64,000 bases of DNA, from contig NZ_JADNRS010000053.1 in the NCBI RefSeq assembly GCF_015709225.1, forward strand, positions 62,001-126,000, read 5' to 3'. Every line of letters starts with the position of its first letter. Positions within the stretch are counted from its first letter, which is position 1. This DNA is from Acholeplasma laidlawii (lineage in GTDB: Bacteria > Bacillota_I > Bacilli_A > Acholeplasmatales > Acholeplasmataceae). The translations under genes and the position numbers were made by a program. Below, in pieces: positions 3,574 to 21,169 of the stretch. Below the pieces are notes generated by a model, which was given only the letters and a program-made list of their open reading frames with translations, was not told the DNA's origin and ran no database searches.

Positions 3574-4305
3574 ATGATTAAGTTAGAACATATAAGTAAA
3601 TCATTTAAGACAAAAAAAAGCAATGTTTGTGCACTAGATGATATTTCACTAGAAATACAAGATGGTGAGATATTTGGTATTATTGGAAAAAGCGGCGTTG
3701 GTAAATCCACATTATTAAAAATACTTTCTTTATCGATGATGTATGATACCGGTACATATATATTAATGGATAAAGATGTTAAAACATTAACACATAAAGA
3801 GAAGGTAAAACTTTTACAAGATACTTCATTTATTTATCAAAACTTTTCCTTACTTTATAACCTAAATATTTTAGACAATGTAAGTTTGCCTTTAAAGTTA
3901 CGTGGTGTTGATAAGTTAACTCGTTATAAAAAGGCTAAAGAGATGTTGGCCTTTGTTGGATTAGATTCTAAAGCATTAGATTACCCGATTACCTTATCTG
4001 GTGGTGAGGCACAGCGTATAAGTATTGCTAGAGCATTAATTACTGATCCTAAGTTGTTATTCTTAGATGAACCCACTTCTGCACTTGATGAAGAAACTGC
4101 TTACGATATTTTAAAACTTATAAGAAAACTCCATGAGACCTTTAAACCTACGATTGTATTTGTCTCTCACCAAATACAATCCATCAAGTATCTATGTGAC
4201 CGTGTAATGATGCTTCATGATAATAAGATAAAGCATATTGGAAAAATAGCTAAATTAAGTACGCTAACTACGACATATGATGCCATATGGGGTGATGTAC
4301 TATGA
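3574..4305 (+). CDS. metN: Methionine ABC transporter ATP-binding protein
   Basis: ATPase subunit of a MetNIQ-type D/L-methionine importer. From the chosen start the protein has 243 residues: Walker A GKSGVGKS at 38-45, signature LSGGEAQR at 141-148, Walker B LLFLDEP at 161-167, and H-loop FVSHQ. An in-frame ATG at 3565 lies too close to the AAAAAGG SD (about 3556-3561); ATG 3574 is properly spaced. Typical MetN has about 340 residues with a C-terminal NIL/ACT domain that mediates trans-inhibition by methionine. That domain is absent here. The gene overlaps metI by ATGA. No S-box is visible in the upstream gap. Assignment to methionine rests on the neighbouring MetQ-like protein. Confidence 0.85.
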   Translation: MIKLEHISKSFKTKKSNVCALDDISLEIQDGEIFGIIGKSGVGKSTLLKILSLSMMYDTGTYILMDKDVKTLTHKEKVKLLQDTSFIYQNFSLLYNLNILDNVSLPLKLRGVDKLTRYKKAKEMLAFVGLDSKALDYPITLSGGEAQRISIARALITDPKLLFLDEPTSALDEETAYDILKLIRKLHETFKPTIVFVSHQIQSIKYLCDRVMMLHDNKIKHIGKIAKLSTLTTTYDAIWGDVL

Positions 4306-4982
4306 TGATGTTTATAAGTCAACCTGATCAACTAAAACTCATAGATGCCACACTTGAAACATTTAACCTATTACTCGTTAGTACACTGATATCTTTACCA
4401 ATTGGAAGTTTACTTGGTATGCTGTTTGCACTTTATGAAAAGAAAGTATTTCATAAGTTTAAGTCCATTGTATCAGTACTTTCTATCTTGGTAAGTGTCA
4501 TACGTTCAATTCCCTTTGTCCTACTCATGGTCATCATCATACCTACATCGTTTGATCTATTTGGTACAAGTATTGGTTTTATACCATCCATTATGGCCTT
4601 AAGTTTGATTGGCATAGCTACCTTATCTAGATTAATTGAACAAGCGATTATTGATATGAACCCTATGATATTTGATATTGCACACACAATGGGTGCATCT
4701 AAATATCAGTTATTCAAAGAGTTTATCTTTGTAGAGGCAAGATCATCCATTATCTTAGCACTTACTTCATTTATCGTAAGTCTACTCGCTTATTCTTCTG
4801 TGGTTTACATTATCGGTGGTGGAGGATTAGGCTATACCGCTATTCAAATAGGATATTATTCACCTGTGGGTAAAACCTTAATGTGGGCTTCAACCATAAT
4901 TATGATTTTAATCGTCCAAGTAGTTCAACTACTTGGTAATATACTTGCAAATTATTTAAACAAAAAGAAAAGAGGTCATTAA
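4302..4982 (+). CDS. metI: Methionine ABC transporter permease
   Basis: Integral membrane permease of 226 residues with five or six hydrophobic segments. It carries the MetI-type opening (ATLETFNLLLVSTLISLPIG). The EAA loop is seen as AHTMGASKYQLFKEFIFVEARSS, which docks on MetN. It starts at the ATGA overlap with metN and ends one base before the metQ ATG, so the three genes form one translationally coupled operon. Confidence 0.9.
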   Translation: MMMFISQPDQLKLIDATLETFNLLLVSTLISLPIGSLLGMLFALYEKKVFHKFKSIVSVLSILVSVIRSIPFVLLMVIIIPTSFDLFGTSIGFIPSIMALSLIGIATLSRLIEQAIIDMNPMIFDIAHTMGASKYQLFKEFIFVEARSSIILALTSFIVSLLAYSSVVYIIGGGGLGYTAIQIGYYSPVGKTLMWASTIIMILIVQVVQLLGNILANYLNKKKRGH

Positions 4983-4983
4983 C

Positions 4984-5787
4984 ATGAAAAAATTATTACT
5001 TATAACGACAACTATACTATTAGGCTTATTAACTGCTTGTACATCCGGTGATGATGTATTAAAAATTGGTGTAAACTTTTATCCAATGCCTGAGTTACTC
5101 GATTTAATTGAAGCGGATTTATTAGAACAGGGCATTAAAATTGAACAAGTTCAAATGGACTACAACGTATTAAACACACCACTAAATAACGGTGAAATTG
5201 CTGGGAATATGGTGCAACACCAATACTTTATGGAATTTTTTAACAAGGCGAATGATGCAGAACTTGTGATTGCACAGCCCATATACCATTCCTACTTCGC
5301 TTTATATTCAGGTGTTTATGATACTATAGGTGATATTCCAAATGGTACAACAATTTATATACCTGAGGATGAAGTCAATCTACCTAGAGCTTTAATCTTA
5401 CTAGAAAGTTTAGGATTGATTACTTTAAAGGAAGGTATTGATGTTACTGCTACATTAACAGATATTGAAACAAACCCTAAGTCACTTGTATTTGAAACAA
5501 GATCGCTTGGTACAACATCTAGTGCATACCACTCAGATGGTTCTAAATTAGCAATTATGTATCCAACCTATGCAAGAGATACAAACAATCAACTGATGGA
5601 TGATAGTGAGGTTTTAGCTTATGAGACTCTAAATGATTTGACAAAAACCTACGCCATTAGTTTTGTTACTAGAAGGGATAATTTAAACGATCCTAAGATT
5701 CAAACATTTATCGATATTCTTACATCAGATAAAGTAAGAACTTGGTTAGAAACAAATTATGGTTGGGCAGCAACACCTGCATTTTAA
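4984..5787 (+). CDS. metQ: Methionine-binding lipoprotein, NlpA/MetQ family
   Basis: Extracellular lipid-anchored substrate-binding protein of 267 residues. A signal peptide ends in the lipobox LLTAC at about residues 15-19. The mature part is NLPA-like: LKIGVNFYPMPELLD, then NTPLNNGEIAGNMVQHQYFMEF, which corresponds to the family's LNDGxxDAxxFQHxxY region, and a GWAATPAF C-terminus. The usual ADVAVINGNYA motif is weak, so the ligand could differ from methionine. The gene ends in front of a hairpin that also contains mscS control signals. Confidence 0.85.
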   Translation: MKKLLLITTTILLGLLTACTSGDDVLKIGVNFYPMPELLDLIEADLLEQGIKIEQVQMDYNVLNTPLNNGEIAGNMVQHQYFMEFFNKANDAELVIAQPIYHSYFALYSGVYDTIGDIPNGTTIYIPEDEVNLPRALILLESLGLITLKEGIDVTATLTDIETNPKSLVFETRSLGTTSSAYHSDGSKLAIMYPTYARDTNNQLMDDSEVLAYETLNDLTKTYAISFVTRRDNLNDPKIQTFIDILTSDKVRTWLETNYGWAATPAF

Positions 5788-16368: not shown

Positions 16369-17037
16369 TTACTTATTAAAAATACTAATAACTTTAGGTA
16401 AATCCTTTTTTCTACCAAAAATAAATATTTCATCTTTTGGTCTTAAGACAGAGTCTTTATTTGGGACTAGTATTTTATTATTACGCTCAATAAGTAAAAT
16501 GTTACTACCATACATACTTCTTAAGTCTAGTTCCGTAATCGGTGTTGGTTCAAAATCCTCTGGTATATTTATTTCAAATACATCAAAATCATTTTTGATG
16601 TTAAAATAATCTACTACATTCCCAAGCGCAATGCGGTTTGCTACGCGTTCACTTGCAATACCAAGCGGACTTACAACATCGGTTGCACCAACCAGTTTTA
16701 AGATAGAGGCATAATCCTCCTCATCAGCTCTTGCTGTTATTTGTTTTACACCGAGTTCTTTTAATTTAATGATTGTAATAATACTTGCAGTTAAATTGTT
16801 TCTTTCATTTTGCCCGAAAGCAACAATCGCGTGATCTACATTAGAAATCCCACTTGCTTTAAGTGCTTCTTCATCTGTGGAATCACACACGAACACATTA
16901 GATATAATCTCACTTGCTTTTTTAACGGAGTCTTTATTGTTGTCTATTGCAATAAGTTCTACATTAAGTTTACTAAAACTATCTACTAAGTTTAAGCCAA
17001 ATCGGCTTAAACCAATAATGCCAATTATTTTTTTCAT
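16369..17037 (-). CDS. ktrA: Potassium uptake regulator KtrA
   Basis: Cytoplasmic RCK gating subunit of 222 residues. The TrkA-N Rossmann domain (IIGIIGLSRFGLNLVDSF, acidic end IAIDNN) binds nucleotides. The TrkA-C domain starts at about 135-140 (FEINIPEDFEPTPITELDLR) and binds c-di-AMP in characterised homologues. It starts 7 bp after ktrB and forms the Ktr channel complex with it. Confidence 0.93.
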   Translation of the reverse strand: MKKIIGIIGLSRFGLNLVDSFSKLNVELIAIDNNKDSVKKASEIISNVFVCDSTDEEALKASGISNVDHAIVAFGQNERNNLTASIITIIKLKELGVKQITARADEEDYASILKLVGATDVVSPLGIASERVANRIALGNVVDYFNIKNDFDVFEINIPEDFEPTPITELDLRSMYGSNILLIERNNKILVPNKDSVLRPKDEIFIFGRKKDLPKVISIFNK

Positions 17038-17044
17038 AATTTTA

Positions 17045-18349
17045 TCATCCTATCATCATTTTTTCTTCTATATAACCGATACTATCCATACCTTTTTTAT
17101 ACCAATGGGTATTAAATATGCTAATGATGGTAATCGGTCCAACTCTACCTATGAACATTACGATACTTAATATTATTTTAGAAGCATTTGATAAAGTAGG
17201 TGTTAAGTTCATAGTTAATCCAACGTTAGCAAATGCTGATATAACTTCAAATATTGCTTTTTCTAATTCAATATCTTCTATCATCAATATAAGTGAAGTA
17301 GCAACTAAAACTATCATAATTGCTGTAGTAAGTAATATACTTGCTTTACTTTTTGTTTCTTCCGTAATTAAACGTTTATATGTAGTTGTAGTTTTTCCTT
17401 TTGCATAGCTTGTGGTACTTTTAAATAATGTATAAAGCGTTGTTGTTTTTATCCCACCACCCGTAGAAGATGGTGAAGCCCCAATAAACATTAATACCAT
17501 TAATACGAGTGCAGTTAAGGAAGATATTGCCCCTATATTAATTGTTGTAAACCCTGCTGTTCTAGCCGTTACACTAAGGAAAAACGCTTCTAACAGATTT
17601 AAGTTTTTACCATCTACTTTACTGAGCAGAAAGAAAATAATCCCTAAACTCCATAAGACGATGTTCACTTTAAGTACGATCTTAGAGTGTATCATTAGTT
17701 TCTTATAAGACTTTTTAGTTAATATATCATTTAATACGATAAAGCCTACACCACCAAGCATTATCAATATAGATGTACTTAAATTAAGTAGCACATGGCT
17801 ATTATATCCTTGAAGATTTGAGTCTCCTAAAATATCAAATCCCGCATTATTAAAACTAGACACAGCATGGAATAAGCTAATACCTATAGCATCCATTACC
17901 TCATATTTAGGCAGAAACACAATCATGTTTGCTATAAAGCCAATACTTTCAATAACAAGTGTAAATACAATAATCTTTTTAACTAATTTAACCATACCAG
18001 ATAAACTGGTTTGGTTAAAACTTTCTTTAATCAAAATTCGGTTTGACAAACCAATTTTAGCACCAATTAAATACATTACAAATACAGATATTGTAATTAC
18101 ACTTAATCCACCAATCTGGATAAGTATGCCTAATACCACTTTTCCAAACGGACTAAGTAAGACTGATAAGTCTGTAACCGGTGATAAACCGGTAATAGTC
18201 ACTGCAGATGTTGAAACAAAGAGTGCATCTACAAAACTCAAATGTCCTTGTGCTTGCTTAGAAATAGGTAGTATAAGTAAAATACCACCTACGAATATAA
18301 TAGATAGAAATGATAAAACAATTATAATGTATGGTGAAATTTTTTTCAT
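17045..18349 (-). CDS. ktrB: Potassium channel subunit KtrB
   Basis: Membrane K+ translocation subunit of the Trk/Ktr/HKT superfamily, 434 residues with four M1-P-M2 repeats. Selectivity-filter segments are visible: TITGLSP, FNNAGFD, ARTAGFTT and FANVGLTM. It precedes ktrA by 7 bp. Upstream there is a weak promoter (TATAAT at 18402-18407, TTGAGT at 18427-18432 on the - strand, 19-bp spacer). A small hairpin lies in the leader at 18376-18392. No ydaO-type c-di-AMP riboswitch is recognisable. Confidence 0.94.
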   Translation of the reverse strand: MKKISPYIIIVLSFLSIIFVGGILLILPISKQAQGHLSFVDALFVSTSAVTITGLSPVTDLSVLLSPFGKVVLGILIQIGGLSVITISVFVMYLIGAKIGLSNRILIKESFNQTSLSGMVKLVKKIIVFTLVIESIGFIANMIVFLPKYEVMDAIGISLFHAVSSFNNAGFDILGDSNLQGYNSHVLLNLSTSILIMLGGVGFIVLNDILTKKSYKKLMIHSKIVLKVNIVLWSLGIIFFLLSKVDGKNLNLLEAFFLSVTARTAGFTTINIGAISSLTALVLMVLMFIGASPSSTGGGIKTTTLYTLFKSTTSYAKGKTTTTYKRLITEETKSKASILLTTAIMIVLVATSLILMIEDIELEKAIFEVISAFANVGLTMNLTPTLSNASKIILSIVMFIGRVGPITIISIFNTHWYKKGMDSIGYIEEKMMIG

Positions 18350-18609
18350 TTTTTAATCATCTTTCTAATATTAAAACTGTAGGCTTTACAGTAACGTATT
18401 TATTATAACCTTAAATAGATAATTTTACTCAATTTTTGGTAATTATACGCCCTAAATCTCATTCTTATAAAAACATATAATAGACTTAATTTATGCAACT
18501 TCTACCCATAAATATGTTTTTTATTAATAGTAATCGATTTCAAAAAAAATTAATTTATAATATGTCTTGCGTAATGGCTTTTGTGGCCATTGAAAGGAAT
18601 TATTTAATT

Positions 18610-19416
18610 ATGAAGTTCTTATTAGATTTACTTAACTCTGACATGATGAGGCCAGAAGCCTATCAGAGTTTTTCAAAAAGCTGGTTTCACTATTTATCAC
18701 TAATTATTACTTTATTAGTTATCATCATGCTGACTCGAAAGTTTAAAGTAGCTGATGATAAAAAATTAAAAAGTATCCTTCTTGTTTTTGGAATTGTGAT
18801 GATAATATTAGAGATATATAAACAAATCATTCTCACCTACCAAGCAAATGCTTACCAATGGTATGCATTTCCGTTCCAGTTTTGTTCAACACCGATGTAC
18901 TTATTTATCATCTATGGCCTAAACAAAAATCACAAAGTTGATCAATACTTATTATCCTTTCTAGCAACTTATAGTACCTTTGCAGGTATTGCAGTCATGC
19001 TATACCCTGCAGATGTTTTTATTGAAACAATTGGTATAAACATTCAAACTATGGTACACCACGGTCTCATGGCTGCTGTAGGATTTAGTTTACTTATAAC
19101 AAAGTTTAAACTATCCATTAAGTACTTTTTAAAAGGCAGTGCTGTATTTGCTATTTTAATGACACTGGCAATGATAATGAATATTATATTTAACATGCAA
19201 GGGATTGATGCAACATTTAATATGTTTTATATCAATGAAAGATTTGGTTCTCATTTACCTATCTTAATGGTTATCGAACCACTGGTACCGCATCTAGCAT
19301 TCTTAGCTATATACCTCTTTGGGTTTAGTTTTGTTGCAAGTATTATCTTCATGATAGGTTATCTATTTAGAAGTATCATTTATAAAGAAAAATATAAATT
19401 AATCGATCTATTTTAA
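18610..19416 (+). CDS. YwaF-like integral membrane protein (TIGR02206)
   Basis: About 268 residues with seven hydrophobic segments and the motif WYAFPFQFCSTPMYLF, typical of the YwaF/TIGR02206 family of unknown function. The open frame runs upstream to 18493, but GAAAGGAA lies 11 nt before ATG 18610, which gives the start MKFLLDLLNSDMMRPEAY. It is an isolated + strand gene with its own terminator. Confidence 0.85.
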   Translation: MKFLLDLLNSDMMRPEAYQSFSKSWFHYLSLIITLLVIIMLTRKFKVADDKKLKSILLVFGIVMIILEIYKQIILTYQANAYQWYAFPFQFCSTPMYLFIIYGLNKNHKVDQYLLSFLATYSTFAGIAVMLYPADVFIETIGINIQTMVHHGLMAAVGFSLLITKFKLSIKYFLKGSAVFAILMTLAMIMNIIFNMQGIDATFNMFYINERFGSHLPILMVIEPLVPHLAFLAIYLFGFSFVASIIFMIGYLFRSIIYKEKYKLIDLF

Positions 19417-19417
19417 T

Positions 19418-19455
19418 AAAGTAGTGAACCCAAAGAATTTGGGTTTGCTACTTTT
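19418..19455 (+). terminator. Terminator of the YwaF-like gene
   Basis: AAAGTAG/CTACTTT outer and AACCCAAA/TTTGGGTT inner stems, followed by a T run, directly after the stop. Confidence 0.85.
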
Positions 19456-19523
19456 ATTATTTATTGCATAGATTTCGTGTTTTTTACCTTCTTAATATAT
19501 ACTATGTGTATAGGAGGCATTTC

Positions 19524-20468
19524 ATGAAAAATAGAGTTGTTATTGTAGGTACTGGTTTTGTAGGCATGAGCTATGCTTATGCACTTTTAAACCAAGGAAC
19601 TTTAGAAGAAATTATATTAGTAGACATTGATTCAAGAAAAGCCGAAGGTGAGGCAATGGATTTAAACCATGGGCTAGCTTTCGCACCAAGAAAAATGCTT
19701 ATACGTTCTGGTACGTATGAAGATTGTAAGGATGCCAAATTAGTTGTTATTACAGCAGGCGTTAATCAAAAAGATGGAGAAACAAGAATTGATCTTTTAA
19801 ACAGAAATGCTAAGATTATGCAGTCTGTTGTAAAAGAGATTATGAAACATCGCTTTAACGGCATCTTTTTGGTTGCAACAAACCCTGTGGATATCTTAAC
19901 CTATATTGTATGGAAATCCTCTGGATTACCATCAAATAGAGTGATTGGTAGTGGTACTTCTCTTGATACTGCAAGACTTCGTTATGAGATATCTCAATAC
20001 ATCAACATTGATGTTCGAAATATCCATGCATATATCTTAGGTGAACACGGAGATTCTGAGTTTGTTTGTTGGTCAAATGCCTTTGTTGGTGTTAAACCTT
20101 TAAAAGATGTTATAGACTCCATGCCAGCACAAATCAAATTCTCTGATTTAGATAAGATTTACCTTGATGTAAAAAATTCAGCATATGAAATTATCCAAAG
20201 AAAAAGAGCCACATATTATGGTATTGGTATGGCTTTAGTACGTATAACAAAGGCTATTTTCAATAATGAAAACAGAATTCTACCGATTTCAGTATTTAAC
20301 GATGATGTATATGATATTGATAATCTCTATATAGGGTTACCAGCTGTATTAAATGAAAACGGGGTAGACCATGTAGTAAAACTTAATTTAAATGATGAAG
20401 AACTCAAATCACTTAAAAGATCTTCTAGTATATTAAAGCGTAGTATCGATTCTATCACATTAGATTAA
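19524..20468 (+). CDS. ldh: L-lactate dehydrogenase
   Basis: NAD-dependent fermentative enzyme of about 314 residues that reduces pyruvate to L-lactate and regenerates NAD+. It has the dinucleotide site VVIVGTGFVGMSYAYALL, NPVDILTYIVWKSSGLPSNR, and the catalytic His in GEHGDSEFVCWS. The frame is open from 19464, but ATAGGAGG lies just before ATG 19524, which is the true start. It is monocistronic with a strong terminator. The alternative, malate dehydrogenase, is less likely given the GEHGDSEF region and overall build. Confidence 0.93.
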   Translation: MKNRVVIVGTGFVGMSYAYALLNQGTLEEIILVDIDSRKAEGEAMDLNHGLAFAPRKMLIRSGTYEDCKDAKLVVITAGVNQKDGETRIDLLNRNAKIMQSVVKEIMKHRFNGIFLVATNPVDILTYIVWKSSGLPSNRVIGSGTSLDTARLRYEISQYINIDVRNIHAYILGEHGDSEFVCWSNAFVGVKPLKDVIDSMPAQIKFSDLDKIYLDVKNSAYEIIQRKRATYYGIGMALVRITKAIFNNENRILPISVFNDDVYDIDNLYIGLPAVLNENGVDHVVKLNLNDEELKSLKRSSSILKRSIDSITLD

Positions 20469-20470
20469 AT

Positions 20471-20516
20471 AAAGGATCAGCCTTAAATAGCGTAACGTAT
20501 TTAAGGCTGATCCTTT
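20471..20516. terminator. Strong bidirectional terminator after ldh
   Basis: A 19-bp perfect stem (AAAGGATCAGCCTTAAATA with its complement) and a short loop. It also serves the convergent - strand gene ending at 20522. Confidence 0.9.
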
Positions 20517-20521
20517 TATTT

Positions 20522-20977
20522 TTACTTATTTATTCCTTCTAAAATGGGTTTGAGATCACGAAATAATTCTAGTGGAAATATACTAGTATCTAAATATAAT
20601 GCAAAGTGCTTTCTTATATAGTACATGTACTCTTTAGCCTCTTTTAGATAACTATGAGAAAGTTCATAATCATCAATTACTGATGCAATAATTAGATTTT
20701 CAAATACACTTACAATCAGATCATTATACACTGTAATTGGTGGATATAGTAAGTCAATTTGTTCCCTAATATAATCATCTATTTTAGATAAATACTCAAA
20801 TAAAGATTTTTTTGACATAAATACATCTTGACTACTTTGAAGTAGTTTAATAAGTAATTTATCCCTTTCTACCTTATCTTTTATCATATAATCTGGATAA
20901 TTGTCTTTATCTTCCTTACCCTTAACTCTAATGCCTTCTAAATATTTTAGAAGTTCATTCTTTAAATCATTTTTCAT
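20522..20977 (-). CDS. Unknown 151-residue protein under SAM-I riboswitch control
   Basis: I do not recognise this protein. It is predicted soluble, helical and Lys/Glu/Asp/Tyr-rich, with no signal peptide, membrane segment or metal motif. A GTG two codons upstream (20983) is open, but ATG 20977 is the more likely start. Its 5' leader is a SAM-I (S-box) riboswitch ending in an intrinsic terminator, and the promoter lies immediately before the aptamer. The gene should therefore be switched off when S-adenosylmethionine is plentiful. S-box genes almost always serve methionine/SAM/cysteine synthesis, recycling or uptake, so a role there is inferred. It is monocistronic. Confidence 0.8.
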   Translation of the reverse strand: MKNDLKNELLKYLEGIRVKGKEDKDNYPDYMIKDKVERDKLLIKLLQSSQDVFMSKKSLFEYLSKIDDYIREQIDLLYPPITVYNDLIVSVFENLIIASVIDDYELSHSYLKEAKEYMYYIRKHFALYLDTSIFPLELFRDLKPILEGINK

Positions 20978-21003
20978 ATACACTTCTTTCTACCAAAAAG
21001 AAA

Positions 21004-21137
21004 GACGCCATCACATGATGGCGTCCATTAGATAAGTCGTATCTTATGTATCCATCATTCAAGCATTAGCACCTTACTTAGTTTTGCAGGTTGCTGAAGG
21101 GTCATAGAGCTTGTCTCTCACCTTCTCTTTATGGTAG
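21004..21137 (-). promoter_or_regulatory. SAM-I (S-box) riboswitch with terminator
   Basis: On the - strand the leader carries hallmark S-box segments: AGAGAAGGTGAGAGA, TATGACCCTTCAGCAACC and GTAAGGTGCTAATGC. The terminator is a 10-bp stem GACGCCATCA/TGATGGCGTC (21004-21025) followed by TTTCTTTTT. The P1 3' strand contains TGATGG (21052-21057). It can pair with CCAT at the 5' end (21131-21134) or with CCATCA of the terminator (21016-21021), which gives the standard OFF switch. Placement right after the promoter fits. Confidence 0.9.
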
Positions 21138-21141
21138 TTTT

Positions 21142-21169
21142 ATTTTAACTCAAATTAATTAATTGTCAA
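21142..21169 (-). promoter_or_regulatory. Promoter of the SAM-riboswitch transcript
   Basis: The - strand reads TTGACA (21164-21169), a 16-bp spacer, then TAAAAT (21142-21147). This places the RNA start at about 21135, where the aptamer's P1 begins. Confidence 0.8.

Follow-up and report, generated by a model that had tools for sequence, protein, structure and literature searches.

A P4-less SAM-I riboswitch with a putative post-terminator latch upstream of an orphan gene of Acholeplasma laidlawii

A 64,000-nucleotide stretch of the Acholeplasma laidlawii genome (the window; positions refer to it unless stated otherwise) carries on its minus strand a SAM-I riboswitch without a P4 helix, followed by the gene for a 151-residue orphan protein. 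The leader is probably a SAM-OFF attenuator by which a small accessory protein would be expressed at low SAM. Riboswitches of the same kind are found in other bacteria and in phages, mostly before other small orphan genes.

The riboswitch element of the window

The first-pass annotation took the leader for a SAM-I riboswitch, and a cmscan search against Rfam bears this out: RF00162 is matched end to end at 21137-21049 (minus strand) with 53.8 bits (gathering cut-off 44.4) and an E-value of 1.3e-9, the sole Rfam match above threshold across the 64 kb window. The aptamer shows P1 (21134-21131/21055-21052), P2 with an internal loop, P3 and the P2-loop pseudoknot, with covariation, and it reaches 101.3 bits with R1, a scoring model of the subtype described below. 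The P4 helix, which is part of the Rfam consensus, is missing, its positions being deleted in the cmscan alignment. For this reason the element was filed as a subtype of SAM-I, not as a canonical member; its ligand core is present and its score exceeds the curated cut-off. The S-box core described earlier is real, with the correction that P4 is missing and that the same genome contains one other SAM-I element, upstream of metK.

A sigma70-type promoter can be read directly from the sequence at 21169-21142 (minus strand), with TTGACA at 21169-21164, a 16-nt spacer and TAAAAT at 21147-21142. It ends 4 nt before the aptamer, directly ahead of the leader as had been proposed. The promoter is kept in the orthologous locus of a related genome (G002), and other subtype loci have promoters of a similar type. 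A gene for a 412-residue protein stops about 10 nt upstream of it, so that read-through from this gene could also feed the leader.

The 3' strand of P1, ATGATGG (21058-21052, minus strand), is at the same time the antiterminator strand, being complementary to the 5' arm CCATCAT (21021-21015) of an intrinsic terminator. The latter was found by folding as the hairpin GACGCCATCATGTGATGGCGTC (21025-21004, minus strand), followed by the U tract TTTCTTTTT. The two pairings are mutually exclusive. Stepwise folding of the growing transcript gives the aptamer with the antiterminator at 130 nt and the aptamer with the terminator at 140 nt, so the overlap of P1 and antiterminator noticed at first reading holds, and both states can be seen. 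Beyond the orphan gene, a bidirectional terminator read from the sequence (GGATCAGCCTTAAATA..TATTTAAGGCTGATCC, 20474-20513) lies before the convergent ldh. It closes the unit and leaves the orphan as its only gene, in agreement with the earlier view that the leader serves a single gene. The metNIQ-like genes at about 3574-5781 (plus strand), said to lack such an element, indeed have no SAM-I upstream: a permissive Rfam scan and a core-pattern search for an overlooked copy there were both empty.

A P4-less subtype of SAM-I

Sorting of 84 RF00162 hits in 61 related genomes gave three kinds of SAM-I, one before metK, one before metN and a third like that of the window. An alignment of 36 sequences of the third kind has a P1 of 4 bp, P2 with an internal loop, P3 and the P2-loop pseudoknot, and P4 is missing throughout. 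The helices are 92-100% paired (97.0% of all cells), both partners vary in 15 of 25 pairs, two of them in the pseudoknot, and none of 500 shuffles matches this. R1 scores the subtype at 71-107 bits, metN-type elements at 47-68 and metK-type elements at 35-45; individual subtype copies also score above the RF00162 threshold. A terminator-like hairpin is present in 96 of 98 subtype loci, and in 98% of these 96 P1 overlaps the terminator arm by at least 5 nt (median 8 nt), as compared to 53% with shuffled arms. Judged by this alignment, the window element belongs to a structurally distinct, compact subtype of SAM-I. In metN-type SAM-I elements of Acholeplasmataceae (e.g., loci L075, L076 and L079), CCAACC/GGTGG replaces GCAACC/GGTGC, a compensatory swap, and these elements appear to lack P4 too.

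With SAM-I (RF00162) the subtype shares P1, P2 with its internal loop, P3, the pseudoknot, the core GCAACC/GGTGCTAA, the terminator-antiterminator platform and a score above the curated cut-off. It differs from canonical SAM-I in the lack of P4, in a P1 of only about 4 bp, in the latch after the terminator and in the mostly small orphans downstream. The kept core nucleotides of SAM-I point to SAM as the probable ligand. The same ligand-binding core is present in SAM-I/IV (RF01725) and SAM-IV (RF00634), and SAM-IV is also devoid of P4 (PMC6890682). However, SAM-I/IV variants lack the P2 internal loop (PMC2864571) and PK-1 (PMC6890682), both of which the subtype keeps. Membership in SAM-I/IV was rejected at 36.9 bits against a cut-off of 41.1, the comparison being one of score, loop and PK-1. 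No paper describing the subtype or its gene set was found in a search that lay mostly outside subscription journals and preprints.

A putative latch after the terminator

Between the terminator and the ribosome-binding site of the window lies the sequence TTTCTTTTTGGTAG (21003-20990, minus strand, U tract included), which is complementary to the first 14 nt of the aptamer, CTACCATAAAGAGA (21137-21124), and is here called the latch. Its complementarity score is 12.3 vs. 9.3 for the 95% point of shuffled sequences. Over the 98 subtype loci the mean z relative to dinucleotide shuffles is 3.0, with 65% of the loci beyond the 95% point, kinship among the loci being ignored. The metK-type and metN-type elements of the same bacteria are likewise RF00162 members with terminators and sit before metK or metNIQ; unlike the subtype, they reveal no clear latch, with z of -0.29 (no complementarity) and 0.70, respectively.

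Several loci with an altered P1 have an altered latch as well, e.g., CCTATAAAGAG with CTCTTTATAGG. The own P1 turned out to be a better latch partner than a permuted one in all 400 trials, and among the ACCAT loci the own P1 prevailed over the swapped one by 47:7 (p 1e-8), kinship being ignored in both tests. The CCTAT loci taken alone, a small set of 14, gave 8:5, which is not significant. An early regular expression for the latch motif hit the U tracts of terminators at several phage loci and gave way to the complementarity and P1-swap tests; its per-position tests had yielded p values of 0.06 and 0.08 with G-U pairs allowed, and 0.0001 and 0.02 with Watson-Crick pairs only. Only transcripts that run past the terminator contain the GGTAG part of the latch, and it is proposed on this basis that the latch locks them into the open state. 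Such pairing may in addition shield the 5' end of the message.

The 151-residue protein

The orphan gene occupies 20977-20522 (minus strand), with an ATG start at 20977 and a weak SD, AAAGAAG, upstream. Pfam, NCBIfam, PHROGs, PADLOC and PDB sequences contain no family for the protein, as expected from the initial failure to place it in any methionine or SAM family. One weak Pfam match, to a glycosyltransferase domain, has 14.5 bits vs. a cut-off of 23.6 and is attributed to chance. The AlphaFold model is all-helical with pLDDT of 52, too weak to use, and has no PDB match at E 0.001.

Between the window species and G002 the orphan has 20 changes at 368 nonsynonymous sites and 13 at 85 synonymous sites (Fisher p 0.004), i.e., dN/dS of 0.33; the value for the neighboring ldh is 0.056. 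By this ratio the reading frame is a real gene under purifying selection. The DNA block common to the window and G002 starts at the promoter. The orphan and ldh differ from their G002 counterparts by a synonymous divergence of about 0.17-0.19, as against about 0.6-1.0 for the adjacent TMEM164-like gene, trkH and trkA (window 16369-20977 vs. L103), a contrast which suggests that the ldh-orphan segment has recently recombined. The TMEM164-family membrane protein (PF14808, E 2e-23) is encoded beside ldh at 18493-19416.

Homologues of the protein (family A) were found in G002 (87% identity), A. oculi (31%) and the MAG AS08sgBPME_440 (26%), and G001 carries a probable fifth member. All four clear members, and the probable fifth, lie behind a subtype riboswitch. 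A search of 160 genomes of the order gave no further clear member, nor any that lacks the riboswitch. Since every clear homologue, from 87 to 26% identity, is preceded by the subtype, the link between riboswitch and gene is conserved. The search for homologues and their neighborhoods advised by the first-pass annotation thus yielded a pairing that persists while the surroundings differ: ldh is common only to the window and G002, and a serine recombinase lies near the copy in the MAG. HEPN-MNT proteins matched by the family A profile in two genomes (G075 and G032) belong to a different gene pair and were discarded as chance matches.

Genes behind the subtype and its distribution

A census was made of 97 distinct subtype loci. 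Motifs served to sort the genes into classes, and Pfam to check representatives; loci with the same downstream DNA entered only once, a few start sites were guessed and the counts are given without correction for phylogeny. An SD and an ORF follow the subtype in nearly all loci. Only three loci precede metK, none metN or metNIQ, and two have no gene. PriA-like genes account for 15 loci, FGase-like for 9 (representative PF05013, E 6e-46), AAA+ for 5 (representative weakly matched by Pfam) and SAM hydroxide adenosyltransferase for 2 (PF01887, E 5e-47). The other 61 are ORFs with a median length of 103 residues, mostly orphans, with several small families among them; those tested gave no library match except for a MORN repeat protein, a glutamyl-tRNA-synthetase-like ORF (recognized by eye) and similar cases. 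The cargo varies even within the genus: family A is present in the window species, G002 and A. oculi, and family B in A. granularum and A. equifetale.

The orphan had been put forward as a possible new methionine/SAM-related protein. This is not supported by the census, in which unrelated small proteins stand behind the same subtype, as do priA and genes for FGase, AAA+ proteins and SAM hydroxide adenosyltransferase. What stands of the original interpretation is that a genuine SAM-I serves one gene outside known families and that their link is conserved; what finds no support is the use of S-box control as evidence of pathway membership. Because the subtype precedes so many unrelated proteins, the riboswitch signals that a protein is made when SAM is low, not that it belongs to methionine metabolism.

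Several classes deserve a separate remark. The priA genes (replication restart) stand behind the subtype in Anaeroplasmataceae (L113, L116, L123, L133, L164, L176, L183 and others). The N-formylglutamate-amidohydrolase-like genes (PF05013) are found in Anaerovibrio and Clostridia (L111, L115, L128, L130, L131, L144, L179 and L184) and possibly serve formyl-methionine salvage. In two Anaerococcus loci (L148 and L151) the cargo belongs to a SAM-degrading enzyme family, SAM hydroxide adenosyltransferase (PF01887/PF20257); behind a SAM-OFF switch this would be paradoxical and does not readily fit a simple saving of SAM. One common fold for the small alpha/beta cargo proteins was considered and set aside, as profile comparison was only suggestive and the model (pLDDT 79) had no PDB match.

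When about 85,000 genomes of named species were scanned with a sequence pattern, the subtype turned up in Acholeplasmatales, Izemoplasmatales, Anaeroplasma, Anaerovibrio, Anaerococcus, Peptoniphilus, Corynebacterium and others. Usually there is one unit per genome, and bacterial units are mostly solitary chromosomal genes; two genomes of the genus (G003 and G007) have no copy. In the mycoplasma Mycoplasmopsis cynos the subtype precedes a DUF4116 gene (L284, 2999-3088 of that locus). Corynebacterium has copies at L141, L146 and L163, with a MORN-repeat gene behind L146; the copy tested has no clear terminator, and CTTCTTTTTATG directly after the aptamer is complementary to the aptamer's CATAAAGAGAAG.

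Fourteen IMG/VR contigs carry the subtype, apart from one contig that matches an Anaerococcus genome. The copies on phage contigs, gut phage included, score 84-96 bits with R1 and mostly precede one family of about 100 residues (MRTI..EKVYI..). Ruminococcus phage PV036439 is the one annotated phage with the subtype among 50,697 records. At five phage loci (L282, L288, L289, L293 and L290) phage DNA methyltransferase genes are found in the vicinity of the unit, with one directly convergent to it in four of the five. Two further candidates were dropped: a Psychrobacter plasmid match is a partial aptamer without an RF00162 match, and MT835503, labeled 'Bacteriophage sp.', carries tryptophan synthase and is probably bacterial DNA.

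Proposed mechanism and alternative explanations

According to the SAM-OFF explanation, with ample SAM the ligand would hold the short P1, the terminator would form and only leader RNA would be made. At low SAM, the P1 3' strand would pair with the 5' arm of the terminator and RNA polymerase would read through. The latch, which is transcribed at this point and lies shortly before the ribosome-binding site, would then capture the P1 5' strand, keeping the aptamer open and covering the 5' end of the mRNA. The helical 151-residue protein, and elsewhere other small proteins, would be made only when SAM or methionine is scarce. We infer both the OFF logic and the action of the latch, and the protein would be a low-SAM effector rather than a pathway enzyme.

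Two alternatives describe the role of the protein and overlap with this explanation of the switch. A dedicated methionine/SAM pathway protein, be it an enzyme, a transporter partner or a regulator of MetK or MetNIQ, would agree with SAM-I control, with a riboswitch pairing conserved at 26-31% identity and with the report that SAM-I in C. difficile occurs only before methionine/SAM genes (PMC11477304). Nevertheless it appears unlikely, given that the sister species A. granularum and A. equifetale have the unrelated family B at this place, that G003 and G007 do without the subtype and that the protein has no homology to any pathway family. The units could also be selfish or defence cassettes triggered by SAM depletion (e.g., by phage SAM-degrading enzymes or methyltransferases), with toxins, anti-phage or counter-defence proteins as cargo. 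Genomes usually hold a single unit, whose cargo and neighborhood change from one to the next; this, the phage copies, five of them near methyltransferase genes, and the serine recombinase in the MAG are all consistent with such cassettes. We consider them rather improbable, however, in view of the absence of any PADLOC hit, the mostly solitary chromosomal position of bacterial copies, the housekeeping nature of priA in Anaeroplasmataceae and the rarity of annotated phages with a copy.

The main product could instead be the RNA itself, if the terminated leader or the latch acted in trans or as antisense. A leader far more conserved than the proteins would agree with this, and a SAM-I acting through antisense RNA has been discussed for Clostridium acetobutylicum (PMC2258182). 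This seems very improbable to us: nearly all loci have an SD and an ORF, the orphan evolves with dN/dS of 0.33 (p 0.004), and the bidirectional terminator of the window stands between the unit and the convergent ldh.

Significance

SAM-I riboswitches are usually taken as markers of methionine/SAM genes. The subtype is wired almost entirely elsewhere, mostly to small orphans, and it is so in gut anaerobes, in phages and in a lineage of near-minimal genomes. Since these proteins are many and unrelated, the subtype would mark a hidden low-SAM response and not one missing methionine enzyme. It is conceivable, albeit somewhat doubtful, that the latch-bearing P4-less SAM-I elements form a widespread class driving fast-changing small proteins in Bacillota and phages, as a general low-SAM response, possibly linked to phages or methylation, that is unrelated to methionine synthesis. 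The latch is proposed to be a simple device which commits a riboswitch to the ON state. In general, dozens of unannotated proteins gain a testable condition of expression, low SAM, and SAM itself may serve as an alarm signal.
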